Below, one piece after another: positions 5,597 through 21,972 of a stretch of 21,972 bases of DNA (the first letter of the stretch is position 1; each line of letters starts with the position of its first letter). Origin of the DNA: a virus. Below the pieces are notes generated by a model. It saw nothing but the letters and a program-made list of their open reading frames with translations. It ran no database searches and was not told the DNA's origin. Both the position numbers and the translations under genes were made by a program. The stretch spans positions 1 through 21,972 of IMG/VR virus record IMGVR_UViG_3300032308_002415, one strand, 5' to 3'.

Positions 5597-5604
5597 TATT
5601 TATC
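5597..5604 (-). promoter_or_regulatory. T4-type late promoter box (GATAAATA)
   Basis: On the minus strand this reads GATAAATA, one base from the T4 late consensus TATAAATA and matching the looser NATAAATA form described for T4-like cyanophages. It lies in the 42-nt gap between the HldD-like gene and the 371-residue fibre gene, 23 nt before that gene's ATG, which is a plausible leader length. It would drive the structural run 5573 to 1 separately from the heptose operon upstream. Confidence 0.5.
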
Positions 5605-7610: not shown

Positions 7611-7611
7611 A

Positions 7612-8178
7612 TCAGTGATCTAGTGTGTACCAGCCCGTGATTATATATTTGTATCCTGAATATATAGGATTTCCTCTGTGCGGGTGCGTGAAATATGCAG
7701 GCCATATAACTAATTTTCCTGTTTCGGGTTTGACTTTAACGCCTTGATAAAGATATTCGGTCTCTCCACCCTCTTCTACAGTATTGAGATACAGCGTATA
7801 GGCCAGTATGCGATTAGACGATGCAGCATCAGCATTTTCACAGTGCCAAGAATGATAGCCCTGATGCGGTCCTGTTCTCTGTACACTCATGCCCTTAGGA
7901 GTATGTTGGAAACAGATACCCAATATGCTGTATTTTTTCGCATATTCTTTGTAATATTGATTCAGTGTTTGGTAGAAGAACGCACAGATATCTGGATCTA
8001 TGTTGTAGTGTCGTTGATTATGGAAGGCCCAGTCAAAGAAAATCCTGTCATCTTGATTTTTTGTGATATCGTCCTGCGTGAGATGTTGCCCCATTCGAAC
8101 CATGTCTTCAAATCTCTGTATTACCGTTTGACAATACTCTTCGGGAAAAGCTCGGGAATATTCTTCTATGAAATTCAT
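7612..8178 (-). CDS. 2OG-Fe(II) oxygenase-like protein (prolyl-4-hydroxylase superfamily)
   Basis: A 188-residue protein with the double-stranded beta-helix pattern of 2-oxoglutarate/Fe(II) oxygenases. The likely metal site is WHCE (His112, Glu114) and His167 in THPHRGNP. Lys177 lies ten residues after His167, the spacing seen for the 2OG-binding Lys in prolyl 4-hydroxylases. EEGGETEYLY (135-144) is the characteristic strand after the first ligand. The first carboxylate is Glu rather than the usual Asp. The N-terminal 90 residues are family-specific and helical in character. It overlaps the cupin gene by 4 nt and precedes the adenylyltransferase by 1 nt, which ties it to the heptose operon. 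A paralogue with the same ligand pattern lies on the other strand at 8870-9490. The substrate is unknown. Confidence 0.75.
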   Translation of the reverse strand: MNFIEEYSRAFPEEYCQTVIQRFEDMVRMGQHLTQDDITKNQDDRIFFDWAFHNQRHYNIDPDICAFFYQTLNQYYKEYAKKYSILGICFQHTPKGMSVQRTGPHQGYHSWHCENADAASSNRILAYTLYLNTVEEGGETEYLYQGVKVKPETGKLVIWPAYFTHPHRGNPIYSGYKYIITGWYTLDH

Positions 8179-8543
8179 TGCTGACTGTCTCCGGGCAGTA
8201 TTCTGTAGTTGTCCTCTACTGAATCTGCAGTGCTGACTTCTATCACTGTGGCTCCTGCGGATCTTGCTATTAACTGATGAGGCACTGTGGGCAAATTACG
8301 CCAGGTATCTCCAGTGTTTAAAATTTTTTCGTTAATTTCCGCAGTAGCAGTGTCTATCCAACGTAGGGTAAAACTGCCTACACTGACATACCAAGTTTCA
8401 TCTTTTTCTATGTGGAAATGCATAGAAAATTTTGAACCTTCTTGTTCAAATACTAGTAATTTACCTGTGTATTTTTCGTTAGTGGACCAAATTAATTCGT
8501 GTCCCCAACCTTTTTTAACATAGCCGCTTAGTTGATTACCCAT
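8175..8543 (-). CDS. Small cupin protein, mannose-6-phosphate isomerase type II-like
   Basis: A 122-residue single-domain cupin. Cupin motif 1, G-x5-H-x-H-x4-E-x6-G, is matched exactly with Gly36, His42, His44, Glu49 and Gly56. Motif 2 contributes His89 in LPTVPHQL, so all four usual metal ligands are present. The start GWGHELIW and KDETWYVSVG resemble the small cupins related to type II phosphomannose isomerase, often found in sugar-nucleotide and surface-polysaccharide clusters. A sugar-phosphate or nucleotide-sugar substrate is therefore likely but not shown. The gene overlaps the downstream oxygenase start by 4 nt (ATGA). The upstream AAAGAA is only a weak ribosome site, and it lies in the arm of a hairpin. 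Confidence 0.75.
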   Translation of the reverse strand: MGNQLSGYVKKGWGHELIWSTNEKYTGKLLVFEQEGSKFSMHFHIEKDETWYVSVGSFTLRWIDTATAEINEKILNTGDTWRNLPTVPHQLIARSAGATVIEVSTADSVEDNYRILPGDSQQ

Positions 8544-8565
8544 GGTTCTTTATATATCAGAACCA
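8543..8565. repeat. Inverted repeat at the cupin start (7-bp stem, 9-nt loop)
   Basis: The arms TGGTTCT (8543-8549) and AGAACCA (8559-8565) are perfect inverted repeats around an AT-only-but-one loop. In the minus-strand transcript the 3' arm would include the AAAGAA region and the first base of the cupin ATG, so the hairpin could mask initiation. It has no U-tract typical of an intrinsic terminator. The short, weak stem makes this tentative. Confidence 0.35.
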
Positions 8566-8594
8566 CGGGTATCGAAGGCTATTTTAAGAATTGA

Positions 8595-8771
8595 TTATTG
8601 TGATTCTTTTTTCAGTCTCCACTTACAGCTTGGAGCATGATTTTCTAGTTTACCTGCGATCTCTTTTTCTGGCCTTTTGCAGAAAAAACACACCATGTCT
8701 TCGTTTGAAGACAAGGGATCGAGGCGTTCTTTTGGATAGTCATTGTATGTTGATAACTTTACTTCTGGCAT
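8595..8771 (-). CDS. Small putative zinc-finger protein, 58 residues
   Basis: A short gene read directly from the minus strand: ATG at 8769-8771, TAA at 8595-8597, 58 codons. It has the best ribosome site in the neighbourhood, GAGGAG at 8778-8783 followed by a 6-nt spacer, and a late promoter box 31 nt upstream of the ATG. The sequence begins MPEVKLSTYNDYPKE. Residues 28-49 hold a Cys-x2-Cys...His-x3-Cys set (Cys28, Cys31, His45, Cys49), which could bind one zinc ion. The C-terminus is basic (KWRLKKESQ). The fold suggests a nucleic-acid- or protein-binding mini-finger, but no specific family was recognised. It is the first gene of the late heptose operon, 51 nt before the cupin. An overlapping frame on the opposite strand (8591-8833) lacks comparable signals. 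Confidence 0.75.
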   Translation of the reverse strand: MPEVKLSTYNDYPKERLDPLSSNEDMVCFFCKRPEKEIAGKLENHAPSCKWRLKKESQ

Positions 8772-8869
8772 TTTTTTCTCCTCGGTCAGAAAGTTTACTG
8801 TATATTTATACTCATCTTTACATAAACTACTAAGAGATTATGGATAATTAAAGTACCAGCGGAAAAATC
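8772..8869. other. Divergent intergenic control region
   Basis: This 98-nt gap separates the minus-strand late operon from the plus-strand operon that begins at 8870. It holds the GAGGAG ribosome site and the late promoter of the minus operon. On the plus side there is a GCGGAAAAA ribosome site just before 8870. Only a poor sigma-70-like pair is visible (TTTACA at 8817-8822 and GATAAT at 8843-8848, with a 20-nt spacer, longer than normal). The plus operon may therefore use a phage middle or early promoter that I cannot define. Confidence 0.5.
8803..8810 (-). promoter_or_regulatory. T4-type late promoter (TATAAATA, exact consensus)
   Basis: On the minus strand this is TATAAATA, the exact octamer recognised by the T4 late sigma factor gp55 with the gp33/gp45 co-activators. 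It sits 31 nt upstream of the ATG of the 58-residue zinc-finger gene, giving a leader of roughly 25 nt, which then contains GAGGAG. The position in a short intergenic gap, at the head of a six-gene run with no other obvious promoter, supports function. It places cupin, oxygenase and heptose genes in late expression. Confidence 0.7.
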
Positions 8870-9490
8870 ATGGAAAATTACGAAATTGACAACTTTATAG
8901 GTGTGTTTCCAAACGCCCTAAGCAAAGATAGCTGTGAACGCATCATAGAGCACTACGAGTATGTAAAATCTCTAGGAAGGGCTCAGACCAGAAAAGAAAA
9001 CGAAAACAGCAAATACATAGATAAAGACAACGAAACGTATTTTTTAATGAATTCTAGGATTCCCTTAGAGCCAGAAGACACTGTTGTTTCTGACATGGAT
9101 CACTACTTTACCGCAGAGTTCGGTAATATCTTTTGGAAATATTTTGAGCTATATCAAAAAGAATACGGAGTCCTGGAATCTACATCAAATGTCATCGGAT
9201 TTAAAGGTAAAATAAAAATACAGAAAAATCTACCTGGCGAGGGCTATCATGTGTGGCATTGCGAACAGTGTACAGTTAATACCAGCACAAGATTATTTTT
9301 AGTGATTTTATATCTCAACGATGTAGAATCCGGAGGAGAGACAGAATTCCTATATCAACATAAGCGTGTGGCCGCTAAACAGGGCACTCTGCTGATCTGT
9401 CCAGGAAATTTCACCCATACCCACAGAGGAAATCCACCGCTGTCTGGAGTCAAGTACATCATGAATACCTGGGTAGAATTTATCAGATGA
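8870..9490 (+). CDS. 2OG-Fe(II) oxygenase-like protein, paralogue of the one at 7612-8178
   Basis: A 206-residue member of the same family as the minus-strand oxygenase. Shared blocks are GEGYHVWHCE (His130, Glu132), ESGGETEFLYQ (153-163), FTHTHRGNPP with His185, and SGVKYI with Lys195, ten residues after His185. These would form the Fe(II) site (His-x-Glu...His) and the 2OG-binding Lys of prolyl-hydroxylase-like enzymes. The N-terminal 100 residues, including GVFPNALSKDSCERIIEHYE, resemble the helical start of such proteins. The start is supported by GCGGAAAAA upstream. It opens the plus-strand operon and its stop overlaps the next start (ATGA). The substrate is unknown; protein side-chain or sugar hydroxylation are both plausible. 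Confidence 0.75.
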   Translation: MENYEIDNFIGVFPNALSKDSCERIIEHYEYVKSLGRAQTRKENENSKYIDKDNETYFLMNSRIPLEPEDTVVSDMDHYFTAEFGNIFWKYFELYQKEYGVLESTSNVIGFKGKIKIQKNLPGEGYHVWHCEQCTVNTSTRLFLVILYLNDVESGGETEFLYQHKRVAAKQGTLLICPGNFTHTHRGNPPLSGVKYIMNTWVEFIR

Positions 9491-10062
9491 CAAATATTTT
9501 AATCTGCGGGGACAGCTTCGCAGCGGATTGGCCTGGAGAAGGGTGGCCTAAAAAATTAGCACTAAAGTATAATGTAAAAAATCTAGCACAGGCCGGTGTT
9601 GGAGAATACAAAATTTTAAAACAGATAGGATCTGTGAATCTTTTAAATTTTGACCTTGTAATTGTAAGTCATACTAGCCCCAGCAGAGTACACACTAGGC
9701 AGCACCCTATACACAGACAGGGTCTGCATGAAAACTGCGATTTGATTTATAACGACGTTGATAGGTTAAATTTTTTCAACAAATCATTAAAAGCAGCAAA
9801 AGGGTGGTTTGACTATCATTACGACGATGAATATCAAACTGATATCTATAATATGCTGCGTGAAAAAATCAAAGACATGATAAAAAAACCTTATATCAGC
9901 ATTTCTCATGCTGACATCCCCGAAGATCTAGTCATAGAAAATAATCATATAGATTTTCGATCTATTTGGAACGATCATCGAGGAGATGTTAATCATTATA
10001 CTGATCTAGGTAATACTTTGGTTTTTGAAACTTTAGATAAAAAAATACAGGAACTGTTATGA
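9487..10062 (+). CDS. SGNH/GDSL-hydrolase-like protein
   Basis: A 191-residue protein. The N-terminus carries the block-I motif ICGDSFAADW with candidate nucleophile Ser10. A following NLAQAGVGEYKI (32-43) fits block II, and the C-terminal GDVNHYTDLGN gives Asp167-x-x-His170, the block-V pair that completes the catalytic triad. Block III (Gly-x-Asn) is not clear, so activity is uncertain. Such proteins act as esterases, acyl- or acetyl-transferases or deacetylases, often on glycans. There is no signal peptide. It overlaps both neighbours by 4 nt (ATGA), between an oxygenase and a halogenase homologue. Confidence 0.65.
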   Translation: MTNILICGDSFAADWPGEGWPKKLALKYNVKNLAQAGVGEYKILKQIGSVNLLNFDLVIVSHTSPSRVHTRQHPIHRQGLHENCDLIYNDVDRLNFFNKSLKAAKGWFDYHYDDEYQTDIYNMLREKIKDMIKKPYISISHADIPEDLVIENNHIDFRSIWNDHRGDVNHYTDLGNTLVFETLDKKIQELL

Positions 10063-11531
10063 AAGAAGTAAAAACCGTAGGCATTATCGGGGGCGGTACA
10101 GCAGGATTAGTTGCTGCGTTGATAATAAAAACAAAATTTCCTTTCATGGATATCGATGTTATCCGATCAGAAAAAATTGGTATCATTGGTGTCGGCGAAG
10201 GATCTACAGAACACTGGTCCAGTTTTATGGAATATGTAGGATTAGATGTGGCAGAAATGATCAGAGAATGTGATGCTAGTTTTAAGAGCGGTATTATGTT
10301 TAAGGGCTGGGGTGAAAAAGATTATCTCCAAAGCATAACTGGACGATATAATTTATTCCATAACAGATATCCCTTTATCTACGGCCAGTTAATTTCTGAT
10401 GCTACTCATCCAAAAGATCTAGTTTCTAGCCATGCTTGGGACAGCAGAGTAAACACATATTTTGTAACTCAAGAAAATATGAGCTCTGTAATACAATATC
10501 ATTTTAATACTAATAAATTAAATTCTTGGCTCACTAGAAAGTGTCAGGAAAGAGGTATAACAGTTTTAGACGATGAAATTCTAGAAGTTTCTCTAGATGA
10601 ACAAAATCAAATATCTAATTTACGCGGCGAAAAACAAATCTATAATTATGATTTCTATGTTGACTCGACTGGGTGGAGAAGAATGCTGATAGGTGCGCTA
10701 GGAGCGAAATGGCAAAGCTACGGTGAGTATTTGAAAATGAAAAATGCCATAGTATTTCCTACAGAAAGCGACGAGGAAATTCCTATGTGGACTAGAGCTC
10801 AGGCCATGGAATACGGTTGGATGTTTACTATACCAGTCTGGGGAAGGAACGGTAACGGTTATATCTATGACGGAGATTATATCACTGCCGATCAAGCGCA
10901 CGAAGAAGTTGAAAAGTTTTTTGGTAGAAAAATTGACATCGCTAAAAAAATTGAATTTACCCCCGGGGCATTAGATCGTCCCTGGATCAGTAACTGTGTA
11001 GCCGTAGGTCTCAGTGCTAGTTTTGTAGAGCCGTTAGAAGCCAGTTCTATCGGAACAAGTATACAGCAGTGTTTTTTAATGTGTGAAAAATTAATAAATT
11101 ACAATCCTAGCACTATCGAATCTTATAATCGATCGATGGGCAAATTGCTGGATAATATTAGAGATTTTATCGCTCTGCATTATGTTACTGATAGAAGAAG
11201 CAGTGATTTTTGGAAAGATGTTAGTAAAATTAAATTGCCCGAAAGTCTATCACAAAAATTAGAAACATGGAAATATAAACTACCTTCTATCGACGACTTT
11301 GAAGGTAGTAGCTTTTATCTGTTTACTGCTTTCCATCATATATTAGTTTTATATGGACTAGGACTATTTGATGTTGATGCTATTAGAAAGGAATATATGT
11401 TAACTATTCCCCAAGAAAGACAGGACGAAGCTAGATTCTTAATCGACGAACAAAAAAGATTAAGATGTCAAACTATTTCTCACAAAACGATGTTAGAAAT
11501 CATTCGTACTGTTAAAAACGAAAACTATTAA
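10059..11531 (+). CDS. Flavin-dependent (tryptophan) halogenase homologue, type B
   Basis: A 490-residue member of the tryptophan halogenase family (PF04820), which uses reduced FAD, oxygen and halide to make a hypohalous species. It has the FAD motif GGGTAG (11-16), GVGEGST (44-50), the candidate catalytic Lys76 in ASFKSGIMFKGW, and CVAVGLSASFVEPLEASS with Glu327 aligned to the catalytic Glu of PrnA/RebH. Two signatures deviate: WxWxIP is WMFTIP (254-259), and F-x2-P-x2-S-x-G reads F-x2-P-x2-A-x-S, so the Ser and Gly next to the halide site are changed. It resembles the 16688-18181 protein more than the other two. No flavin reductase gene is in the window; a host enzyme would have to supply FADH2. 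Overlaps the SGNH gene by 4 nt. A viral iodinating relative, VirX1 from cyanophage Syn10, is known. Confidence 0.8.
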   Translation: MKEVKTVGIIGGGTAGLVAALIIKTKFPFMDIDVIRSEKIGIIGVGEGSTEHWSSFMEYVGLDVAEMIRECDASFKSGIMFKGWGEKDYLQSITGRYNLFHNRYPFIYGQLISDATHPKDLVSSHAWDSRVNTYFVTQENMSSVIQYHFNTNKLNSWLTRKCQERGITVLDDEILEVSLDEQNQISNLRGEKQIYNYDFYVDSTGWRRMLIGALGAKWQSYGEYLKMKNAIVFPTESDEEIPMWTRAQAMEYGWMFTIPVWGRNGNGYIYDGDYITADQAHEEVEKFFGRKIDIAKKIEFTPGALDRPWISNCVAVGLSASFVEPLEASSIGTSIQQCFLMCEKLINYNPSTIESYNRSMGKLLDNIRDFIALHYVTDRRSSDFWKDVSKIKLPESLSQKLETWKYKLPSIDDFEGSSFYLFTAFHHILVLYGLGLFDVDAIRKEYMLTIPQERQDEARFLIDEQKRLRCQTISHKTMLEIIRTVKNENY

Positions 11532-11539
11532 GGAAAAAA

Positions 11540-12451
11540 ATGTTACCTAGAAGATTATTCGCATTTGGCTGTAGTTTTACAAATTATCTTTGGCCGACTT
11601 GGGCCGATATTTTAGGTAAAGATTATTTCTTATTTCATAACTGGGCTTGGCCGGGATTAGGAAATCGAGCAATCGCAGAAAGAGTTGCAGAAGCTCATGC
11701 CAAGTTTAAAATCGAACCTTCTGATTTAGTTGTAGTTCAGTGGACCAGTCATCTAAGACACGATTGGCTCCACTTTAGACGACCTAAAACAGATTATAGT
11801 CATTGGAGAACTAAAGGTAGTATTTTTACTGAACAAAATCAAAAGTTTTATAGCAAGGAGTGGATGGAAACATTCTGGGACGAACGGGCATATTATGTCC
11901 ACACTCTAAATAACATATTATTAGTACAGGGATTTTTAGACGGCATAGGTTGCGAATGGTACATGACATCTATGACTGATCACAGTAAATTAAGCATAGA
12001 AATTTCAGGTAGAACTGTAGACGGGGAGCACCCCGACGAACAAGGCGGAATTTTTGATGTGTGGGAAAAAACTCCAGAATTATTAGATTACAGAAATCGT
12101 ATTTGGTTAGAAAGGGAAGATAAGTGGGTTTTGCCTATAATGGAATATTGTAAAACTACTCCTCACGACCATTGGTGGTTTAAATTTGATAAAAATAATC
12201 CAAATGAAAAAACGTTCCGCAAAGATAAAAATGATCGGTGGATGGAGCCTCATCCTAGTGTAAAACAACACGCAGAGTGGTTGCTGTTATTAAAAGAAAA
12301 AATGAAACAAGATCCGGCGTTGTCAGAAAATCAACAAATGTTTGTTGACGAATTTATTAATCTAAAAGCATTAGACGAAACATATAATGATTTTGATGCC
12401 AAGGTTAAACAAACAGCGTGGGGATTTGAACCTAAGTATCGAGGATTTTAA
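11540..12451 (+). CDS. SGNH-hydrolase-like protein, 303 residues
   Basis: A 303-residue protein starting with LFAFGCSFTNYLWPTWADIL, where GCSFT (10-14) fits block I of SGNH-type proteins with Ser12 as candidate nucleophile. NWAWPGLGNRAI (34-45) fits block II. The C-terminal EPHPSVKQHAEWL has a candidate catalytic His238. The middle is rich in Trp and His and was not recognised. A GAAGGAAAA-type site (AAGGAAAAAA) lies in the 8-nt gap after the halogenase gene, so this gene can initiate independently. It ends in a tail-to-tail overlap of 20 nt with the minus-strand gene at 12432-13268. Hydrolase function is inferred from weak motifs only. Confidence 0.55.
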   Translation: MLPRRLFAFGCSFTNYLWPTWADILGKDYFLFHNWAWPGLGNRAIAERVAEAHAKFKIEPSDLVVVQWTSHLRHDWLHFRRPKTDYSHWRTKGSIFTEQNQKFYSKEWMETFWDERAYYVHTLNNILLVQGFLDGIGCEWYMTSMTDHSKLSIEISGRTVDGEHPDEQGGIFDVWEKTPELLDYRNRIWLEREDKWVLPIMEYCKTTPHDHWWFKFDKNNPNEKTFRKDKNDRWMEPHPSVKQHAEWLLLLKEKMKQDPALSENQQMFVDEFINLKALDETYNDFDAKVKQTAWGFEPKYRGF

Positions 12452-13268
12452 CGCCCTTACACCACGGAAGAAATTTGTGAGCTATTTCTAAATGCCCCTG
12501 TAAGGTATAATGTTCGTCATCGGGCATCAGCATTTCACTTATATCGTAACCTATTTCTTTTAAGTAAGTTTCGGCAGATTTTTCTATCTTAACGATTGAT
12601 TTCATTTTGCCGTATAATTCGATATTTTTTGGCATATAAACTCGATCATTTACTCTCCAGAGATACATTTTTAGATTTTTTTCTGCGCAGAGTCTATCCA
12701 TTAAAAATAATGTTCTACAATATTCTCTGTGTTGTAGATGTGTCATCAATTCAGACCACAGTTTTACAACTATGTAAGGATCCTTCTGAAGATTTGGCTT
12801 ATATTTTTTTGGCAAATATTTCAAAGTTTCATAATCTTCTGGTGCTATTTTTTGAGGATAAAAATGATTTGATCGTTGTACATTATCTTGTTCTGCTAAT
12901 TCTTCTGGATAATCAGAATATCTAGATAGCAGATCTGTTTCGCTGTGTAATTTAGTGAAATAATCTATAGATATTTCCTCGGTATAGTCTCTAAGATCAG
13001 ATCCGCTCAACATAAATCTATTCCAGTGTAGTGCTTGAACAAATACTTCGTCAACATCTGAGTATTTGTCTAGACAAAATTTAAGCCAGTCTGGGTATCT
13101 TTGTATAGTAGTACCACTCATAGCATAAATTACAGCAGACTTTGAATATAAATCAGAATAAATTTCAGCATAGTTGTTGGGTTGCCAGACGTGTGGAAAA
13201 TTCATATGAGCGACTTGCTCTCTCCAATATCCCTGTGTATGACTGTCACCTAAAAATAATGATCTCAT
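12432..13268 (-). CDS. SGNH/GDSL-hydrolase-like protein, 278 residues
   Basis: A 278-residue protein with RSLFLGDSHTQGYW at the N-terminus (Ser9 as candidate nucleophile) and MPDDEHYTLQGH near the C-terminus, giving the Asp250-x-x-His253 pair. These are the block-I and block-V elements of SGNH hydrolases. The middle (about 60-240) is charged, rich in Tyr, Leu and Lys, and has no motif I can name. No signal peptide or membrane segment. It is the last gene of the long minus-strand block and overlaps the methyltransferase stop by 4 nt. Its stop lies inside the plus-strand gene that ends at 12451. Likely roles are ester hydrolysis or acyl transfer on a glycan; unproven. Confidence 0.6.
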   Translation of the reverse strand: MRSLFLGDSHTQGYWREQVAHMNFPHVWQPNNYAEIYSDLYSKSAVIYAMSGTTIQRYPDWLKFCLDKYSDVDEVFVQALHWNRFMLSGSDLRDYTEEISIDYFTKLHSETDLLSRYSDYPEELAEQDNVQRSNHFYPQKIAPEDYETLKYLPKKYKPNLQKDPYIVVKLWSELMTHLQHREYCRTLFLMDRLCAEKNLKMYLWRVNDRVYMPKNIELYGKMKSIVKIEKSAETYLKEIGYDISEMLMPDDEHYTLQGHLEIAHKFLPWCKGVKILDT

Positions 13269-13903
13269 TTTTTATAAAACCAATCTTCATTGTAGGGTTG
13301 TTCCGATTCTGCTCTAGTATATCCCTTAGATTCCAACAATTCGATTATGGGTTCTCTTAGAGGATTGTTAGCATGTTCGACTGTGATGCAACTGATACTG
13401 TATTGATCGAAATCAAAGGTTCTTAAAATTTCATACTCGCTGCCTTCTGTGTCTAAACTCAAATAATCTATTTGTTTTGGTGCTTGGTATAATATTAATA
13501 AATCAGTTAAAGAAATAGTATAAACATTAATAGTTTTGTATTTTTCATCTATGGAAGGATGATAGGAATTATTGTATTGACTTAATCCTGCTTTAAAATT
13601 TAAACCATACGGCAAAGATTGATCAGCTATAAATCTAAAAGGTAGAATTTTTCCAGATTCTGAATAAACGCACAGTGTACTAACAAAATTGTCTCTACAA
13701 TTTATTAAACTTTGTAAAAAGGCAGGATTCGGATCTACACATATTCCGTCCCATTTAAACCATTTTTCCAAGGTGAAGCTATTACTAGCTGTAATTCCGT
13801 CAGCTGCTCCAATGTCAACGAAGTATCCGTTATTTTTATAATTGGCATGTTTTAATGCGAATTGTTCTTGACCCGATTCGGAATTTTTAATTATATCATT
13901 CAT
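13265..13903 (-). CDS. FkbM-family methyltransferase
   Basis: A 212-residue SAM-dependent methyltransferase of the FkbM type (PF05050), which methylates hydroxyl groups of sugars, polyketides or glycans. Motif I is YFVDIGAADG (27-36) followed by ASNSFTLEKW, then WDGICVDPNP with the acidic residue Asp58 at the end of strand 2. The FkbM-specific block IDYLSLDTEGSEYEIL is at 145-160, and SCITVEHAN (171-179) follows. The length matches the domain alone. It overlaps both neighbours by 4 nt (carbamoyltransferase upstream, SGNH-like protein downstream), an arrangement that suggests a shared O-linked modification of one substrate. Confidence 0.85.
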   Translation of the reverse strand: MNDIIKNSESGQEQFALKHANYKNNGYFVDIGAADGITASNSFTLEKWFKWDGICVDPNPAFLQSLINCRDNFVSTLCVYSESGKILPFRFIADQSLPYGLNFKAGLSQYNNSYHPSIDEKYKTINVYTISLTDLLILYQAPKQIDYLSLDTEGSEYEILRTFDFDQYSISCITVEHANNPLREPIIELLESKGYTRAESEQPYNEDWFYKK

Positions 13904-15540
13904 TGTTTTTTAATTATCTTACCTGATTCAGGGAACCATAGGATATCGATTTCTGAACTATCAAAAGTTTTTACAGCATCTTCTACAGTTTCTACCAGAG
14001 GTTCACCTGCTAGATTAAAACTAGTATTGAGTAAAACTCCACAGCCCGTTTTATCTTTGAAAGCTTTTAAGAGGTTGTAGATATGTGAAATTTTTTCTGA
14101 AACAGTCTGCACTCTACAGCTTCCGTCGACATGAACCACTCCGGGTATCTCTACTGATTTTTTACATTGAAAACTAACAGTCATGAATTCTGATTTTACT
14201 ATTCCGTGGTTATCAAAATATTCAGCAAAATCCTCTTCTAATACCATGGCAGCGAAAGGTCTATACCATTCCCTCTTTTTTATTCGATTTACGATTTTTT
14301 TAGCGTCTGGATTTCTAGCATCAAACAAAATAGATCTATTTCCCAATGCTCTCGGTCCGCTTTCTGCCAAACCGTTATAGACCGCCACTGTTTTCTGTTG
14401 AATCAACTGTTCTACTAACCGCTCATAATCGCAATCGTGTCCATCGATTTTTTTATCTTCGTGAATACCATGTATGAAAGTATCTTGTATAGGATTGATT
14501 GTTTGATCTTTAGTGATGAATCTATAAAGATGCATAGCTGCGCCTAGGCTGTTTCCGCTGTCATCTGCTAATGGTTCAAAATAAAAATCTACATCGGGAA
14601 ACTGTTTAACGAGATAACCGTTACAAACAACATTCAGAGCATACCCGCCAGATAGACAAACTTTTTTAATTCCAGTTTTCTCTATCCATTCGCCGACTAA
14701 GTTTCCTACGAATTCCTGTGTCTGCTTCTGCACCTGATAGGCGTAGTCAGCATAAAATTTGTAATTTTCTTCTGAAAGATTGGATGTTTGTCTATCTATA
14801 TAATCTTTAAAAATTGTAGAATTAAATCCAGGTATTACAAAAGGGCCGTGTGTGAATAATCTATCCTGCGGTCTTCCTTGATTATAAAATTCTACAAAAT
14901 CTTTATCTTCACCGTAGGCAGCTAGTCCCATGGTTTTTCCGTTTTCTAAAGGTTTTTCGCCTATGAGTGTAGTAGCGGATTCATAAATTTTAACCGTGCT
15001 CATAGTTGTGTCGGCATTAAAACTATAGGGCTGTTGTGATAGACGACGGAAAACGTCAAAGTGCTTCGTATCGGTAGTGGAACCTAAATCATGTACCCAA
15101 AAATTCTTGTGTAATGTTTTAAATTCACAGGGATATTCTGCTACAAAAACTGTTTCTGCTTCTCGCATACAGCCTTCGATCACCGAACCATCTCGATCTA
15201 TTACAAAAATCAGTGCTCGATCAAATCCACTATTGTAAAAAGCTAAACTTGCGTGACTCAAATGATGATGTTCCATGTATTCAGTTACTGGACAATCAAA
15301 CATCCTCGATAGTGTTGTAGATAAAAATGCTGATTCGATATCTGCCGGGGAAGGACTTGCGATACAAGCGTGATCGATTTTACCCGTGACGTTTTCTAAA
15401 ACTTTGATCAGAGACTTGATAGGATGGCTTTCTCTTTTTTTTCTAGTATATCTCTCTTCTTTAAAGAAAAGCTCTACTTCTCCGTTGTTTATTACAGCCA
15501 CTGTACTATCATGAAGAGGACTTACACCTAGTATTCTCAT
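13900..15540 (-). CDS. O-carbamoyltransferase, NodU/CmcH family
   Basis: A 546-residue protein that would transfer a carbamoyl group from carbamoyl phosphate, via carbamoyl-adenylate, to a hydroxyl group. The N-terminus MRILGVSPLHDSTVAV is typical of the family's ASKHA-type domain. His92, His96 and Asp115 in HHHLSHA and FVIDRDGS match, in spacing, the iron ligands of TobZ. Other blocks are GKTMGLAAYGED, CLSGGYALNVVCNG, ESGPRALGNRSI, WYRPFAAMVLEE and, in the C-terminal domain, LLNTSFNLAGEPLVET. The length is within the family range. Overlaps of 4 nt join it to the GmhB-like gene and the FkbM methyltransferase. A sugar or glycan acceptor is likely from context. A second homologue ends at 21788. 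Confidence 0.85.
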   Translation of the reverse strand: MRILGVSPLHDSTVAVINNGEVELFFKEERYTRKKRESHPIKSLIKVLENVTGKIDHACIASPSPADIESAFLSTTLSRMFDCPVTEYMEHHHLSHASLAFYNSGFDRALIFVIDRDGSVIEGCMREAETVFVAEYPCEFKTLHKNFWVHDLGSTTDTKHFDVFRRLSQQPYSFNADTTMSTVKIYESATTLIGEKPLENGKTMGLAAYGEDKDFVEFYNQGRPQDRLFTHGPFVIPGFNSTIFKDYIDRQTSNLSEENYKFYADYAYQVQKQTQEFVGNLVGEWIEKTGIKKVCLSGGYALNVVCNGYLVKQFPDVDFYFEPLADDSGNSLGAAMHLYRFITKDQTINPIQDTFIHGIHEDKKIDGHDCDYERLVEQLIQQKTVAVYNGLAESGPRALGNRSILFDARNPDAKKIVNRIKKREWYRPFAAMVLEEDFAEYFDNHGIVKSEFMTVSFQCKKSVEIPGVVHVDGSCRVQTVSEKISHIYNLLKAFKDKTGCGVLLNTSFNLAGEPLVETVEDAVKTFDSSEIDILWFPESGKIIKKQ

Positions 15541-16112
15541 GATTCATTATAAGGCAGTGCGTTAGCAAACGACCATAGATCATCAAAAACCATAGTTTTC
15601 TTTTTTAAATCTCTGTGTGCGTATCTATCTAATTCTTTTAAAGTATCTGCACCGTGTCCTGTTTTGACCAGTACAGGTGTAGCTCCTATTTTTTCTGCAG
15701 CTTTGAGATCGCTGATCTTATCTCCCACAAAGGCACCGCCTTTGAATTTAACACCTTGTTCTTCTTCTGCTCTGCGAAACATACCTATGTTAGGTTTAGC
15801 AAACATATCATCTTTTAAGTTAGTAGTACTGTAATATATTCCATCTATGCTAGGACAACCTGCCTGACCTAATAGTTCTAACATCCTATGATTTACAGAT
15901 TCTACATCTTGCTGGGTTAGTAATCCTTTGGAAATGCCTGCCTGATTAGTCAATATAACGATATTATATCCCTTAGCACGTATCTGTGCCACAGCTTCTA
16001 GGCTTCCTACTATAGGAACGAATCCGTCTGGATGTGAAATATATCCTCTATCTTCGTTGATAGTACCGTCTCGGTCTAATCCTATAGTAATGTTAAATCT
16101 AGCTTTAGACAT
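15537..16112 (-). CDS. gmhB: GmhB-like D-glycero-D-manno-heptose-1,7-bisphosphate 7-phosphatase (HAD family), zinc loop lost
   Basis: A 191-residue HAD-superfamily phosphatase of the GmhB/HisB-N group. It would remove the 7-phosphate from heptose 1,7-bisphosphate. GLDRDGTINEDRGYI (11-25) holds the nucleophile Asp13 and acid/base Asp15. VILTNQAGISKGLL (52-65) is motif II (Thr55), Lys106 sits in AKPNIGMF, and FVGDKISDLKAAEKIGATPVLVKTG (from 128) is motif IV, with Asp131. The Cys-x-His and Cys-x-Cys zinc ligands expected between IYY and KP in GmhB are absent: IYYSTTNLKDDMFAKP contains no Cys or His. The substrate call depends on similarity plus HldA/HldC/HldD-like genes elsewhere in the window. 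It overlaps the upstream gene by 8 nt and the carbamoyltransferase by 4 nt. Confidence 0.75.
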   Translation of the reverse strand: MSKARFNITIGLDRDGTINEDRGYISHPDGFVPIVGSLEAVAQIRAKGYNIVILTNQAGISKGLLTQQDVESVNHRMLELLGQAGCPSIDGIYYSTTNLKDDMFAKPNIGMFRRAEEEQGVKFKGGAFVGDKISDLKAAEKIGATPVLVKTGHGADTLKELDRYAHRDLKKKTMVFDDLWSFANALPYNES

Positions 16113-16722
16113 TTTTTAAATTTAAATTAAATGCGATAGTGATTCTTTCACTATCTGTGTATTGTTGATTAACGCGATGCCAAAGATATCTAGGAAAAAA
16201 CAGTGTCATTCCACTAGAAACTCTGCAGATCTTTTCTGATGTGTTGTAATCATTAAGATCACGCCTTGCCTTAAAGGGCCAGTTAGTATACATTATATTT
16301 GTGTTCATAAATGCTATAGCGGCATCATCGTGTTCTGCTTGTAGATAATATACACCGCTCCATATATCAGGACAATGATGGTGTATACCATGATAAGAAT
16401 TTTCTCTGTTTATACTAAACCAAGATTTTGCTAATTCTAATTCTCCTATTAGTCCAATTCTATTATGTAATTCTTGGGCTGACATTAAAACATGATCTTT
16501 GATCGGTTTAAGTTCTTCAAGATCGAAGATCTTATCTATAGTGTCAAAACTTGTATAGCTTCCTCTGGGATAGGAATCGTTATTCAGCGGTAATTTTTTT
16601 TCTATCTCGTAGAATAATTTTAATATTTCTTGTTTTTTATTTTCATCAATAAAAAAATCTTTCCTTGCTAGAGGAACTTTGAAAATATCAAATATTTCTA
16701 TGTTGTCTTGTTCGAAGTTCAT
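16105..16722 (-). CDS. Putative 2OG-Fe(II) oxygenase, TIGR02466-like
   Basis: A 205-residue protein. KSWFSINRENSYHGIHHHCPDIWSGVYYL (from 99) is the characteristic block of the TIGR02466/PF13759 group, whose members usually have His-x-His near Ser-Gly-Val-Tyr-Tyr. FFPRYLWHRVNQ (175-186) gives His182, and Arg193 in ERITIAFN is the likely 2OG carboxylate anchor. Candidate Fe ligands are therefore His114/His116 and His182. It belongs to a different oxygenase family from those at 7612 and 8870. The ATG lies 35 nt inside the end of the upstream halogenase gene and has no clear ribosome site; the domain begins near residue 10, so the start is reasonable. Many phage homologues of this family have no known substrate. 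Confidence 0.75.
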   Translation of the reverse strand: MNFEQDNIEIFDIFKVPLARKDFFIDENKKQEILKLFYEIEKKLPLNNDSYPRGSYTSFDTIDKIFDLEELKPIKDHVLMSAQELHNRIGLIGELELAKSWFSINRENSYHGIHHHCPDIWSGVYYLQAEHDDAAIAFMNTNIMYTNWPFKARRDLNDYNTSEKICRVSSGMTLFFPRYLWHRVNQQYTDSERITIAFNLNLKNV

Positions 16723-18181
16723 CGGTATTATCGGGTAAATTTGATATCTTAGCAGATGTTATATTACTCATATTATAGTACTCTTTACTTGCTAAGTCTA
16801 CTACTCTATGTAGTTCAAGTTCTTTTCTAGCTATTTCGGGAGTGAGTTTTCCCGTGCCTGCTAGGATGTAACTCCACAATGGCCATCCTGCTGCTCCTGG
16901 AATCCCTGGAAACATACTGCTGTTTGGAACCCTGTGTTGGCACACTCCTATGATCGCAGAAACATGATCAGTTAGGGTCTTTCCGGAACTTATATATTTC
17001 CAGAATTCGGAATCAGTTCTGCCTCCTTGATAATGTAAAACTAAAAAGTCTTTCAGCAAATCATACATGAAGTTGTGTTTTTCATTATACATATTCATGG
17101 TATTTGGATCGCAGGTTAATTCTTTATTCAGCGACAGACAAAATTTAGCAAAGCTTTCTAATTGGACTATAGTGGTATGGATAGACGTCGCTTCTAAAGG
17201 CTCGGCGAATGCTGAGGCTAGCCCAATAGCAAGACAATTTTTTTCCCAAAGAATTTCTGATCTTCCAGATTCAAATTTTATAAATTTTATAGGCTTAACA
17301 GCACGACCTAGACTCTTTTCAATCTCTTCATGGGCTTGATCATCTGAAATAAATTCACTAGAATATACATAACCGCAACCTTTGCGATTTAGAGTTGGTA
17401 TCTGCCACATCCAACCGGCCCTATGTGCCCAGGCTGTGGTCACAGGAGAAATAGTTTCATCGGCTTCATAGTCTAATAAGAAAGGCATCGCTCTATCAAC
17501 TGGCAAATTATTTTTATAACTATGCCATTTAACTCCTAGAGCTTTCATCAATATTCTAGAAAACCCCGTAGCGTCGATGAAAAAGTCTCCGGTGACGGTA
17601 GTATCTGTGCTTAAACCTAGAGACTTAATAAATCCCTGTTCATCTAAGTTCACTGTTTTCACTTCTGCGTCGATATGAGTAACTGATTCTCCGCAAACTT
17701 TCTTAAAATATTTTCCCACTTTATGAGCGTCGAAGTGATAGGCTGCCGGGCCATCTTTCATAGACAGCGTGTCTCTGTTCTGATCAATCATAAACCCGTT
17801 GTCTGAATTTAAATGCCAACCGGATTTATCAAAATTTGCTAACGTGTGTATGAACATAAAATCTAAAGGACTGTTACTAGTCCACGATCCGTCGATCGGT
17901 CCGTAATAGCTAGAACCGTCCCCAGTCCAGTTAACATGTTTGATTCCTAATTTCGGTGTAACATCACAAGAATTTACAAAATCCTGTTCGTCACAGTCAT
18001 ATTTTCCTGTGATATTTTGTATTACATTTGTCAGTGTGCCTGTGCTGCCTTCTCCTGCTCCTATGATTCCAATAGCAGAAGACTCTATCACTGTGAATTT
18101 ATGGGAGTCACCTTTGGTCTTAGATAAAATCAATGCTGCTAACCAGCCGGCTGTTCCGCCTCCTACTATTACTATATTCAT
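16688..18181 (-). CDS. Flavin-dependent (tryptophan) halogenase homologue, type B
   Basis: A 497-residue tryptophan-halogenase-family protein. IVGGGTAGW (5-13) binds FAD, GAGEGST is at 41-47, candidate catalytic Lys77 lies in TPKLGIKHVNW, the WxWxIP motif is intact (WMWQIP, 257-262), and CLAIGLASAFAEPLEATS contains the candidate catalytic Glu330. As in the 10059-11531 protein, the residue after this Glu is Ala rather than Ser, and the motif F-x2-P-x2-S-x-G becomes F-x2-P-x2-A-x-S. The two also share YVYS/YIYD and DQAHEE-(I/V)-E around 271-288. The C-terminal region has a Pro/Gly-rich segment. Overlaps the next halogenase by 4 nt (ATGA). The substrate and halide are unknown. Assigned to the family with confidence; true halogenation is less sure. 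Confidence 0.8.
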   Translation of the reverse strand: MNIVIVGGGTAGWLAALILSKTKGDSHKFTVIESSAIGIIGAGEGSTGTLTNVIQNITGKYDCDEQDFVNSCDVTPKLGIKHVNWTGDGSSYYGPIDGSWTSNSPLDFMFIHTLANFDKSGWHLNSDNGFMIDQNRDTLSMKDGPAAYHFDAHKVGKYFKKVCGESVTHIDAEVKTVNLDEQGFIKSLGLSTDTTVTGDFFIDATGFSRILMKALGVKWHSYKNNLPVDRAMPFLLDYEADETISPVTTAWAHRAGWMWQIPTLNRKGCGYVYSSEFISDDQAHEEIEKSLGRAVKPIKFIKFESGRSEILWEKNCLAIGLASAFAEPLEATSIHTTIVQLESFAKFCLSLNKELTCDPNTMNMYNEKHNFMYDLLKDFLVLHYQGGRTDSEFWKYISSGKTLTDHVSAIIGVCQHRVPNSSMFPGIPGAAGWPLWSYILAGTGKLTPEIARKELELHRVVDLASKEYYNMSNITSAKISNLPDNTDELRTRQHRNI

Positions 18182-19635
18182 TTCGTATTCACCGAGTTAA
18201 TTGAATCTAGCATATCTTGATGCGATATGCCCTTCGTTGATTTGATTTCTTGACTTTTTAAAAATAGTCCCATGGTTCTTTCCACTAGTAAAGGATTAAT
18301 AGTGATATCTTTTTTTAGAGGTACACCTAGCTGTATCAACCAAGCGAACCAACTGCCTGGACCAAATATTCTGTTATCTTTTAAATCAGGTTGACATAAT
18401 TCGTAGAGCATTTTATTTTCGTCTATGCAGATATCTTCGTAATACATCTGTATGTCAGATTTCTGATGAACAGATTTAACATGTTGCCAAAATGCTCCTT
18501 CTCTATCGGAGTGAGAATAATGCATGTTAACAAAATCTACAACGTCTTCGAAATGTCTTATCATCGTAGCATTATAGTGATCGATATCGTACTGGTCAAA
18601 AAAATCTAATCTTAATTTTTCAGCTAGCTTTTTAATACCTAATCGTATGAGAGAAATTCCTGTACTTTCCAGTGGTTCAACAAATCCTCCGCTGAGTCCT
18701 ACAGATACAACATTTGTTTCCCAGAAGTTTTTAATGTAATAGGGAGTCCAATCTATGATTCTGATTTTTTCTTTAGACAGTCTACCGTTGAGATGCTCAT
18801 AAAAATAGTCTTTGGCTGTTTCCGGATCAGTGATATTTCTATTAAAAACCAATCCGCAGCCCAGTCTATGTTGTACAGGTATCCTCCAGGTCCAACCGTG
18901 TTCTACAGCTGAACAGATAGCATAGGGACGTTTTTCTTCTGTTTCATTTTCGTAAGAAATTTGCCCAACTGCTGCTGTATTACAAAATAAACGATCTTCT
19001 AAATTTACCTTATCTTGTTGTTTTAGCAGACTAGAAAAGCCAGTGCAGTCTATGTATAGATCTGCTTCTATCTGTTGACCGTTGACTAGTGATAAAAATT
19101 CTACAGCATGTTGATTTCTCACTACTTCTTTTACTTCCGATCTGATTACGTTGACCAATCCTTCTAGTTTTGATTGTAGGTAAACAACTAATTTTCCACA
19201 GTCAACATGATACGCATATAAATCTAAATTGTAGGGATCAATTAAATTATCTTGACTTGATTTAAAAAACGGTAAAGCATGATCTAGAAAATTAGTTTCC
19301 GGATACGCTGACCAAACATCGAATTGACTTAATTTTACAGCATCGTGCTGTGTGTTAGTTAAAAAAGGATGCCAGAATAAATTACCTTCTTTACCCCAGT
19401 TGGGAAAAAGTATACCAGATTTAAAAGTAGCAGAAACTGCAGGAATCCATTCATGTTTTTGAAATCCGCAACCTGCCATGAAGTCTGAAAAATCTAAAAG
19501 AGTAGCTTCACCTACCCCGATAGGTGTACCTTGTTCTTTATCTATTACAGTTATATCAAAACTGGGAAGATTATTTCTAAAGAACGCTGCGGTCATCCAT
19601 CCTGCTGTGCCACCGCCTACAATAACTACCTTCAT
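18178..19635 (-). CDS. Flavin-dependent (tryptophan) halogenase, type A, tandem copy
   Basis: A 485-residue member with all classical signatures: IVGGGTAGWM (5-14), PIGVGEAT (38-45), catalytic Lys72 in TFKSGILFPNW, GWTWRIP (Trp248, Trp250), and SVGLSGGFVEPLESTG with Glu323-Ser324-Thr325-Gly326, as in PrnA and RebH where Thr and Gly bind chloride. Length is below the 530-540 of bacterial tryptophan halogenases, lost mostly from the C-terminal part. It shares long identical stretches with the adjacent 19632-21086 protein (for example AYHVDCGKLV, LVFNRNITD, ETAKDYF, IDWTPYY), so they arose by tandem duplication. Overlaps both neighbours by 4 nt. Reduced FAD must come from a host reductase or one outside the window. 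Confidence 0.85.
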   Translation of the reverse strand: MKVVIVGGGTAGWMTAAFFRNNLPSFDITVIDKEQGTPIGVGEATLLDFSDFMAGCGFQKHEWIPAVSATFKSGILFPNWGKEGNLFWHPFLTNTQHDAVKLSQFDVWSAYPETNFLDHALPFFKSSQDNLIDPYNLDLYAYHVDCGKLVVYLQSKLEGLVNVIRSEVKEVVRNQHAVEFLSLVNGQQIEADLYIDCTGFSSLLKQQDKVNLEDRLFCNTAAVGQISYENETEEKRPYAICSAVEHGWTWRIPVQHRLGCGLVFNRNITDPETAKDYFYEHLNGRLSKEKIRIIDWTPYYIKNFWETNVVSVGLSGGFVEPLESTGISLIRLGIKKLAEKLRLDFFDQYDIDHYNATMIRHFEDVVDFVNMHYSHSDREGAFWQHVKSVHQKSDIQMYYEDICIDENKMLYELCQPDLKDNRIFGPGSWFAWLIQLGVPLKKDITINPLLVERTMGLFLKSQEIKSTKGISHQDMLDSINSVNTK

Positions 19636-21086
19636 CTATCCGCCTTGGTTAAGATTCCCAGGGAATCAATGTGAGGCACTGATCTCTTTTCTCTAATTTT
19701 TTCATTATGTAGGAAGCTGTTCATAGCAAGACTCTGATAGTATTCGGGCATATCTAAACGTTTTTTAACAGGATAACCTAGTTGAATTAACCACAGCAAC
19801 CAGTTGGCATGATTAAACATTTTAGAATCACCAATTAAGTCTGGTAGATATTTGAATGATTTAGTCTCGTCAGCTAAGAAATTTTCATACCACTGTTGTG
19901 TCTTTGATTTTTGATAATTTGTTTTCACATATTGCCAAAATGGCTCAATACGTTCAGTGTCAGCGTAGTGCATGTTTATAAAATCTACAGTGTCCTCGTA
20001 CATTTTGACCATCTGACTATTGTACAACTCTACGTCATATTCGTTCCATAGTCCCAGAGAAATCTTGTCACTGAGTCTCCTGATCCCTGCTCTCATAAAA
20101 GCCAAGCCAGTACTCTCTAAGGGTTCGATGAATCCGCTGCTTAATCCTATAGAAATAACGTTACCTTCCCAACAATTTTTAGTGTAGTAAGGAGTCCAGT
20201 CTATCACTTTAAGTTTATCTTTGCTAACTCTGTTATCCCAGTGCGTGACAAAATAGTCTTTGGCTGTTTCTATGTCTGTGATATTTCTATTAAAAACCAG
20301 TCCTGATCCAAATCTTCCCTTTACAGGAATCTTCCAAATCCAGCCGTGATCAACTGCTTCTGAAATAACGTAAGGTCTAAATTCTTTTTCCTCATCCTGA
20401 TAGGGCACATGGCCTGCGACTGCTGTATTACAAAATAATCTATTTTCTAAATTTACTTTCTCTGGAGTTTTTAAAAGATTAGACCAACCAGTGCAGTCTA
20501 TGAAAAGATCTGACGTATGTTCGACACCGTTTTCCAACATCAGACTTGCTATATTCTTTCCTTCTTTTTTAACTTCAATAACAGAAGAGCGAATAATCTC
20601 GATAAAAGGATGGATTTTAGATTCTATAAATTTGACTAATTTTCCACAGTCCACGTGATATGCGTAATTCTCTTTTTTGATAATATCTACTTTGTTCTTT
20701 TTGCTAACTTCTAACATAGGTAAGCCGTGTGTAGCAAAAGGCAAAGATTGATCCTGCGCCCAGATATCCCATTGACTGGTGTATCCTAGATCTAAGTGGA
20801 CCATGTGTATGAAAAACGGATGCCAAACTGAATTTTCTTTATTCTTCCAGCCTGGAAATAGTATACCTGATTTATAAGATCCGTCAACGGTGGCCAGCAG
20901 TTCATCAAAATCAAATCCACAATCACGCATGAACGGTTCAAAATCTAAGACTGTAGCTTCTCCCACACCGACCGGAGTTCCTATAACTTTATCTATTAAG
21001 ACTACTTTAAAGTCAGGATGTCTTCTTGATAAAAATGCTGCGGCCATCCAACCTGCTGTGCCGCCTCCAACTATGGTGATTTTCAT
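19632..21086 (-). CDS. Flavin-dependent (tryptophan) halogenase, type A, tandem copy
   Basis: A 484-residue paralogue of the neighbouring downstream halogenase. It has IVGGGTAGWM (5-14), PVGVGEAT (38-45), candidate catalytic Lys72 in SYKSGILFPGW, GWIWKIP (Trp249, Trp251), and SIGLSSGFIEPLESTG with Glu324-Ser325-Thr326-Gly327. The halide and lysine sites are thus complete. The stretch between residues 80 and 135, which in this family lines part of the substrate site, differs much more between the two copies than the flavin parts do, suggesting different substrates. The start is 1 nt after the stop of the DUF6445-like gene, and its stop overlaps the next start (ATGA). Pairing with a DUF6445-like gene is also seen next to halogenase homologues in some bacteria, from memory. 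Confidence 0.85.
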   Translation of the reverse strand: MKITIVGGGTAGWMAAAFLSRRHPDFKVVLIDKVIGTPVGVGEATVLDFEPFMRDCGFDFDELLATVDGSYKSGILFPGWKNKENSVWHPFFIHMVHLDLGYTSQWDIWAQDQSLPFATHGLPMLEVSKKNKVDIIKKENYAYHVDCGKLVKFIESKIHPFIEIIRSSVIEVKKEGKNIASLMLENGVEHTSDLFIDCTGWSNLLKTPEKVNLENRLFCNTAVAGHVPYQDEEKEFRPYVISEAVDHGWIWKIPVKGRFGSGLVFNRNITDIETAKDYFVTHWDNRVSKDKLKVIDWTPYYTKNCWEGNVISIGLSSGFIEPLESTGLAFMRAGIRRLSDKISLGLWNEYDVELYNSQMVKMYEDTVDFINMHYADTERIEPFWQYVKTNYQKSKTQQWYENFLADETKSFKYLPDLIGDSKMFNHANWLLWLIQLGYPVKKRLDMPEYYQSLAMNSFLHNEKIREKRSVPHIDSLGILTKADR

Positions 21087-21087
21087 G

Positions 21088-21795
21088 TTATATAAAGAAT
21101 ACTTGATTAATTCTATAATTATCGCCGGTATACATTCCTGGCTTAATATACGCAGTATGATAAACAGCCTGAGGATAGAGGACCATTCTATTAAATTTCA
21201 TCTCTGCGAGATACTCTAACTGCCAACCTCCTACGCTATCTACTATAAAGTGGTCAGGCTTTATGGTTTTTTCTGCGTCCATCCATTCAGAAAAACCTTT
21301 CATTAGACCGTTAAACGAATAAAAACCAGTACCGCCTTTACATTCTTCCGGAGTGTTCAAATAGATCAGTGCCGCATAAACATCTTCATAAGGGAAATCT
21401 ACGTGGGGTGAACAAGCGGGAAGATTTTCCGAAGTCATTACATTAACAATAAATGTAGCATCTCTGAAAGATTCATAAACAGCGTTTGGTCTCATGCATC
21501 TATATGTTTCTGGCAAATATGTTTTATAGATATGATCAAATGTAGGTGCCAGACCATCCATGATATAAAAAGCGTTGATTCGTCCGCTGTGATGATCGGC
21601 AGGTAAATTTGTTAGTATTCTTTTGTTAGTTGTAGGAGGAATCATTATAGCTAGATTCCTCACTAAATCTGGGTTTTTGTAAAAATTATCAACAATCAAT
21701 AATTTATGCTTTTCAGCACCCATCTCGATCACCTGCACTTCGAAATTTTCGTTTACAGCAAAAGTTTCTTGTTCGTTGATAAATGTTTTAAGCAT
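21088..21795 (-). CDS. DUF6445-like protein with 2OG-Fe(II) oxygenase fold pattern
   Basis: A 235-residue protein. SPHVDFPYEDVYAALIYLN (from 129) contains His131-x-Asp133, followed by GGTGFYSFNG (154-163). RMVLYPQAVYHTAY then gives His213, and the protein ends YRINQVFFI with Arg228. This His-x-Asp...His...Arg order and spacing is that of cupin-fold Fe(II)/2OG oxygenases. The overall sequence resembles the DUF6445 family, which I recall near tryptophan-halogenase homologues in proteobacteria; no function is established that I can cite. No signal peptide. The gene overlaps the end of the upstream carbamoyltransferase by 8 nt and lies 1 nt before the halogenase, so the three are probably co-translated. 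Confidence 0.65.
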   Translation of the reverse strand: MLKTFINEQETFAVNENFEVQVIEMGAEKHKLLIVDNFYKNPDLVRNLAIMIPPTTNKRILTNLPADHHSGRINAFYIMDGLAPTFDHIYKTYLPETYRCMRPNAVYESFRDATFIVNVMTSENLPACSPHVDFPYEDVYAALIYLNTPEECKGGTGFYSFNGLMKGFSEWMDAEKTIKPDHFIVDSVGGWQLEYLAEMKFNRMVLYPQAVYHTAYIKPGMYTGDNYRINQVFFI

Positions 21796-21972
21796 CGTTT
21801 TTAACCTCTACTAGAAATCCATACTCGGGAAGATATAGATATTCCATTAGGCTGTTGGCTAAAGTTCTAACAGCATCATCTAAGGTTTCCACTAGAGGTT
21901 CTCCGCCGAGATTAAACGACGTGTTAAACAATATAGGCATGCCAGATTCTTTATGGAACTCGCTGATTAAAT
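21788..21972 (-). CDS. Carbamoyltransferase, NodU/CmcH family, C-terminal 60 residues only (runs off right edge)
   Basis: An open frame enters from the right edge and stops at TAA 21788-21790. The visible 60 residues contain PILFNTSFNLGGEPLVET followed by LDDAVRTL, which align with LLNTSFNLAGEPLVET and VEDAVKTF near the end of the complete carbamoyltransferase at 13900-15540. This is the most conserved block of the family's C-terminal domain. The tail (YLYLPEYGFLVEVKNDA) is diverged. Whether the rest of the gene is intact lies outside the window. Its last 8 nt overlap the start of the DUF6445-like gene. Confidence 0.8.
   Translation of the reverse strand, partial: LISEFHKESGMPILFNTSFNLGGEPLVETLDDAVRTLANSLMEYLYLPEYGFLVEVKNDA

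Follow-up and report, generated by a model that had tools for sequence, protein, structure and literature searches.

Four flavin-dependent halogenase homologues of two halide-loop types in a putative glycoconjugate-tailoring cassette of a T4-like marine phage

The IMG/VR-type virus record IMGVR_UViG_3300032308_002415, whose 21,972 bases analysed here are referred to as the window, carries four flavin-dependent halogenase (FDH) homologues, which we name HalA (10059–11531, plus strand), HalB (16688–18181), HalC (18178–19635) and HalD (19632–21086), the last three on the minus strand. All four open reading frames (ORFs), singled out by an earlier note on this DNA, are present and match the Trp_halogenase family (Pfam: PF04820) with 279–324 bits (cut-off 21; E-values 1e-82 to 1e-96), as well as PHROG 2928. 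They lie in a variable segment beside the tail-fibre genes of a T4-like marine phage, whose host can be judged from relatives alone, most of which infect marine cyanobacteria, and the cluster they belong to spans positions ∼5616–21972, more than the coordinates of the earlier note covered. Neither a megablast comparison of the entire window with phage records nor an Rfam search of it returned a match, and a tRNA search found none.

The GGGTAG (GxGxxG) motif and the catalytic lysine and glutamate that had been read in all four proteins were borne out by motif search and hidden Markov model alignment (K76 and E327 in HalA, K77 and E330 in HalB, K72 and E323 in HalC), as was their division into two types at the halide loop. 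In type A, comprising HalC (FVEPLESTG) and HalD (FIEPLESTG), the loop conforms to the Fx.Px.Sx.G motif; in type B, comprising HalA (FVEPLEASS) and HalB (FAEPLEATS), it does not. This motif is not a strict requirement, as BrvH and the Xcc enzymes deviate from it at the glycine and are still active (PMC7336383), and HalA and HalB therefore classify as FDH homologues of putative activity. The WxWxIP motif is kept in HalB (WMWQIP), HalC and HalD, while HalA reads GWMFTIP, a variant common to about 75 of 271 viral relatives. HalC and HalD are 49% identical and every other pair 25–34%, so the four did not arise from a single gene by recent local duplication. Single-sequence scans of viral contigs with HalA or HalB found no relative, and alignment queries were needed.

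With the tryptophan halogenases PyrH, PrnA and RebH the four proteins share the GxGxxG motif and the catalytic residues, and those modelled share the fold (TM-score about 0.88). Unlike them, however, HalA–D lack the Trp4 substrate motifs (defined in PMC8269204), with no [YH]YHG[LF] in any of the four; the HxF (Trp2) motif, too, is missing from HalA and HalB, so that free tryptophan appears an unlikely substrate. [RK]NFW has a single match, in HalC, which falls on KNFWETN, ahead of the halide loop, and not on the Trp4 position. Structure prediction with AlphaFold2, which covered HalA and HalB, yielded models with a mean predicted local distance difference test (pLDDT) of 93.3 and 93.5, whose best matches in the PDB are the FDHs 8fov for HalA (Z-score 46.7, root-mean-square deviation 2.4, 470 aligned residues) and 9luq for HalB (Z-score 46.1, root-mean-square deviation 2.6, 472 aligned residues). 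The top matches of both models are FDHs at Z-scores of about 44–47, including PrnA, RebH, PyrH, BrvH, Xcc4156 and VirX1, so that the modelling proposed in the earlier note predicts an FDH fold for both type-B proteins.

The phylogeny proposed there was built from 265 FDHs, with PyrH and SttH as references in place of PrnA, RebH and BrvH. HalC and HalD fall in an exclusively viral clade of 72 members that includes VirX1 (support 0.93), and HalA and HalB outside it, in a clade of 76 (support 0.92) made up of 60 sequences from viral contigs, seven from isolate phages, seven from bacteria and the two from the window. The two halide-loop types are genuine clades. The only alignment columns fixed to different residues at 85% in both clades are two halide-loop positions: S/A, which ranks 11th in divergence among 402 columns and is affected by the selection of our viral-contig scans on EPLEA/EPLES patterns, which biases raw motif frequencies, and G/S, which ranks 4th and was not part of these patterns. 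The split reappears among isolate phages retrieved by similarity alone, with Gly in 14 of 14 and Ser in 11 of 14 members of clade A, and Ala in 7 of 7 and Ser in 6 of 7 members of clade B.

In FDHs, the backbone amides that hold the halide belong to the two residues following the serine (T359 and G360 in RebH), and BrvH, which has Thr-Ser at these positions, is an active, bromide-preferring FDH (PMC5945002, PMC7336383). Because BrvH and two FDHs from Xanthomonas campestris, both active brominases (PMC7336383), carry a serine in place of the glycine, the Gly-to-Ser half of the type-B loop has active precedents; for the Ser-to-Ala half, which sets type B apart from BrvH, we found no description in the FDH literature examined. 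Type B most likely stays a halogenase-type enzyme, and a halide preference differing between the two types is possible. The different redox role that the earlier note had floated for type B did not fare as well: with the lysine, the glutamate and the FDH fold retained, the halide bound by backbone amides and serine-bearing brominases active, a redox-only role is a weakly supported minority option.

Losses of the catalytic glutamate were seen elsewhere among phage FDH homologues. It is replaced by glutamine in copies from Syn1, S-RIM44 and Sf-CH3 (loci L011:12001-13437, L022:3001-4437 and L026:3001-4455, with the loop PLQATS), which sit near talC and hli genes, and in one from CP21 (L019:5995-7194, PLQSTG); according to one review, this substitution inactivates FDHs (PMC8407142). 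The same phages also carry a shortened PF04820-like family of ∼400 residues (L109:2662-3879, L085:3180-4364, L030:18572-19720, L082:607-1794, and about 168252-169244 of the S-SSM7 record), in some copies of which the glutamate is replaced by serine or phenylalanine and the lysine is kept.

Tandem arrangements of FDH genes recur among phages. Of 160 viral FDH loci compared, a few of which share a contig, 24 hold at least three FDHs and some hold five. Within the window, HalD overlaps HalC and HalC overlaps HalB by 4 nt each, and in a further locus (L110) the D-C-B triplet seems to recur, with the third gene cut off. Wherever a type-A and a type-B gene are adjacent and co-directional, A precedes B (23 of 23 pairs, HalC–HalB included), with an overlap of 4 nt in 19 pairs and of 1 nt in the other four. 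This order recurs in 22 contigs, mostly from one other phage lineage, to which the HalC of the window is 42–45% identical, and has survived large divergence. In Syn10, VirX1, found as an exact match, is the downstream member of a tandem A-A pair; A-A pairs likewise occur in S-RIM44, P-TIM40 and P-RSM6, where its relatives occupy the downstream half. No other FDH gene adjoins HalA in its operon.

The genes around these homologues, assigned by family search unless stated otherwise, form three chains. Nine minus-strand genes, joined by overlaps (the largest of 35 nt) or gaps of a few bases, run from 21795 to 12432 and encode a DUF6445 protein (21088–21795), HalD, HalC, HalB, a 2-oxoglutarate (2OG)-Fe(II) oxygenase (16105–16722; 2OG-FeII_Oxy_5), a GmhB-like HAD phosphatase (15537–16112), a NolO/CmcH-type carbamoyltransferase (13900–15540), an FkbM-type methyltransferase (13265–13903) and a GDSL-like protein with a GDSH start (12432–13268; weak match to PF13472, E-value 0.01). 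On the same strand, the window ends within a second carbamoyltransferase, whose C-terminus (21796–21972) was read by eye from the motif NTSFNLGGEPLVET. Converging on this chain is a plus-strand unit from 8870 to 12451, opened by a 2OG-Fe(II) oxygenase (8870–9490) and followed by a putative SGNH/GDSx-like protein (9487–10062), HalA and a second such protein (11540–12451), these two assigned by an N-terminal GDSF and GCSF only, with no family match; the three SGNH/GDSx-like proteins of the window are perhaps acyl- or glycan-modifying. A second minus-strand chain, started by a 58-residue ORF with a zinc-finger-like CxxC...HxxxxC pattern (8595–8771), runs from 8543 to 5616 and comprises a cupin-like protein (8175–8543; PHROG 7851, annotated 'cysteine dioxygenase'), a third 2OG-Fe(II) oxygenase (7612–8178), an HldE-like nucleotidylyltransferase (CTP_transf_like, 7206–7610; PHROG 7878), a PfkB-family (HldE-kinase-like) sugar kinase (6482–7267) and an NAD-dependent nucleotide-sugar epimerase (5616–6485). 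Then follow, also on the minus strand, a tail fibre or baseplate wedge-tail fibre connector (4458–5573; PHROG 677, 1e-38), a tail-fibre-region protein (3337–4443; weak match to PHROG 3018) and a large virion/tail-region protein of 1109 residues, open at the window edge (1–3327) and assigned by position alone. The oxygenases, carbamoyltransferases and methyltransferase listed as neighbours in the earlier note are thus present, one carbamoyltransferase being truncated, and the list extends to HldE-type, epimerase, GmhB-type, DUF6445 and SGNH-like genes.

This gene set recurs in many phages. Among the most frequent neighbour clusters within 4 kb of the viral FDHs are two of 2OG oxygenases (in 81 and 78 of the 160 loci), DUF6445 (72), carbamoyltransferases (61), PfkB kinases (42), GmhB-like phosphatases (38) and cupins (34). 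A rotation null test on 29 longer FDH phage records places genes for DUF6445, carbamoyltransferases and 2OG oxygenases nearer to FDHs than expected (p ≤ 0.0022 for records of at least 90 kb). The A-B lineage has the order gp15, NUDIX, FDH-A, FDH-B, a fused PfkB/CTP-transferase, epimerase and cupin; the HldE-like kinase and nucleotidylyltransferase, fused in one protein there (L113:12975-14123), are separate overlapping genes in the window (6482–7610). FDHs stand beside tail fibres and 2OG arrays in Syn10 (VirX1), S-RIM44, P-TIM40, P-RSM6, S-SZBM1 and S-CREM1, and beside collagen-like genes in DSL-LC01. Bacterial relatives sit with TonB receptors, SapC, Cupin_8 and also DUF6445, a gene that adjoins FDHs both in phages and in proteobacterial TonB/SapC clusters (21088–21795 in the window, L052:3900-4598, L237:9557-10267) and may encode an Fe(II)/2OG oxygenase, because one member weakly matches 2OG-FeII_Oxy_3. 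The PF01613 flavin reductase, the reductase family searched for, was found in none of the 29 FDH phage records and in 13 of 14 control genomes, and reduced flavin is therefore probably supplied by the host.

A ten-gene cluster of this kind has already been described in S-SSM6a, where a halogenated amino-acid/sugar metabolite or a capsule decoration was proposed as its product (PMC7824862), and prnA in cyanophages is a long-standing observation (PMC2984593, PMC3037559, PMC10452541); with four FDHs in two clades, the window is a variant of it. In S-SSM7, nearly the same cassette lies between the tail fibre and the neck gene gp13, and the S-SSM6a/S-SSM7 cluster (L009) shares with the window two carbamoyltransferases, an FDH, the HldE-type nucleotidylyltransferase and kinase, a cupin, an epimerase, 2OG oxygenases and a DUF6445-type gene. 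The set typical of S-SSM6a, namely carbamoyltransferase, FDH, 2OG oxygenase, cupin and HAD phosphatase, is complete in the window; its HemK-like amino-acid methylase was not seen there, the window being cut at its right edge, and FkbM is found instead. S-SSM7, however, has one full-length FDH in the cluster against four in the window, two of them type B, and the window differs further by its coupled D-C-B triplet, FkbM and SGNH-like genes. VirX1 of cyanophage Syn10 (PDB: 6QGM) shares the type-A clade with HalC (∼29% identity) and HalD, and likewise stands in a tandem FDH pair near tail-fibre and 2OG genes, but its partner is of type A, whereas that of HalC is of type B, and no heptose or carbamoyl genes are annotated around it, though many neighbours are annotated as hypothetical. 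BrvH, like type B, has a serine at the motif glycine and, like HalA–D, lacks the Trp4 motif. The TonB-associated proteobacterial loci of FDHs related to BrvH and the Xanthomonas enzymes resemble the window in their DUF6445 and Fe/cupin genes, but centre on TonB receptors and SapC rather than on nucleotide-sugar genes. To this earlier work the present analysis adds the multi-FDH form, the separation of the two clades at the halide loop, the coupling of type A to type B in that order, and the genomic setting of VirX1.

Together, a heptose-type nucleotide-sugar set (HldE-type kinase and nucleotidylyltransferase, epimerase, GmhB-like phosphatase), two carbamoyltransferases, an FkbM methyltransferase, three 2OG-Fe oxygenases, DUF6445, a cupin and four FDH homologues suggest that the virus decorates a surface sugar or a small molecule with halogens. 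We give a probability of roughly 0.5 to the reading that the cassette is a tailoring set for a halogenated glycoconjugate of the surface or the virion or, less likely, for a diffusible metabolite. Host reductases would supply FADH2, and each FDH would convert O2 and seawater halide to hypohalous acid, which the lysine and glutamate would guide onto an electron-rich, probably bulky substrate (glycan-, peptide- or carrier-linked) rather than free tryptophan. HalC and HalB, which are translationally coupled, may share one substrate, with HalC acting before HalB or the two forming a complex. What results would be a halogenated, hydroxylated and carbamoylated glycoconjugate on the virion, at the tail fibre, or on the infected-cell surface, a diffusible metabolite being less likely. 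Several points speak against this reading: the sugar genes might belong to a different pathway whose place in the variable segment is coincidental; no glycosyltransferase was recognized among the genes of the window; in some phages the FDHs are remote from tail fibres, near talC/hli/psbA or replication/recombination genes; and the A-to-B order represents few independent events, because most of the 23 pairs come from one related lineage (at least 66% identity), the window being the main addition.

We consider it rather unlikely that the product is a diffusible secondary metabolite, a halogenated amino-acid/sugar compound that would act on competitors as an antibiotic or toxin. Such a metabolite figures in the proposal for the S-SSM6a-type cluster (PMC7824862), the antibiotic idea is on record for phage prnA (PMC2984593), and pathways of this sort typically have carbamoyltransferases and FDHs; however, the window showed no recognizable core scaffold enzyme (nonribosomal peptide synthetase, polyketide synthase or ribosomally synthesized and post-translationally modified peptide precursor), the cassette adjoins tail fibres, and a slow secreted product would be of little gain to a lytic phage. 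Similarly doubtful is a direct action of the FDHs and 2OG oxygenases on tail-fibre (collagen-like) side chains, for example by Trp/Tyr halogenation and Pro/Asp hydroxylation, tuning adhesion: FDHs adjoin tail-fibre, tail-fibre-assembly and collagen-like genes in many phages, the open site of the related FDH Xcc4156 might take peptides (PMC7336383) and MibH is a known case of peptide halogenation, but the nucleotide-sugar and carbamoyl genes would be left unexplained. That type-B proteins are non-halogenating partners or monooxygenase-like FDH relatives, supporting the type-A enzyme of a pair, seems improbable. The near-fixed S-to-A and G-to-S changes, the conserved coupling of B behind A and the glutamate losses in other phage FDH-like proteins (Gln in Syn1, S-RIM44 and Sf-CH3; Ser or Phe in the ∼400-residue forms) would fit it, yet HalA and HalB keep both catalytic residues, their serine has active counterparts in BrvH and the two X. 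campestris brominases (PMC7336383), and HalA has no FDH neighbour to support. Although T4-like cyanophage segments of this sort carry many variable genes (PMC2984593), the view of the four FDHs as unrelated host genes carried by accident is very hard to maintain and was rejected on the clade tree with its 72 and 76 members, the recurrent neighbours and conserved order, the intact ORFs with their catalytic residues, and the rotation test, in agreement with the earlier note, which had preferred a viral tailoring cluster to a stray acquired gene.

VirX1 is a useful biocatalyst, and no report of its natural substrate was found in the literature examined. The recurrent context of heptose-type sugars, carbamoylation, 2OG oxygenases and tail fibres, together with the A-B pairs, narrows the search for such substrates to surface or virion glycoconjugates; the coupled pairs point to co-expression of the partners, and dozens of new FDHs in two halide-loop classes are available for testing halide preference. 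It is a tentative, rather speculative extension of the glycoconjugate reading that marine phages possess a dedicated chemistry of paired halogenases, in which enzymes of two ancient viral FDH clades, differing most consistently at the halide loop and in many cases translated together, cover virions or infected cells with a halogenated, sugar-based layer; if true, this would explain what VirX1-type enzymes do in nature.

The T4-like late-promoter core ATAAATA occurs twice in the window against 10.3 copies expected, upstream of a tail-fibre gene (5597–5603) and of the 58-residue ORF (8803–8809). Among relatives, 17 of 175 FDH transcription units have TATAAATA within the 90 nt before them (0.7 expected from its density), as do 47 of 385 other units (1.5 expected), an enrichment of the same order, and as a motif match this is consistent with late expression of the FDH units.

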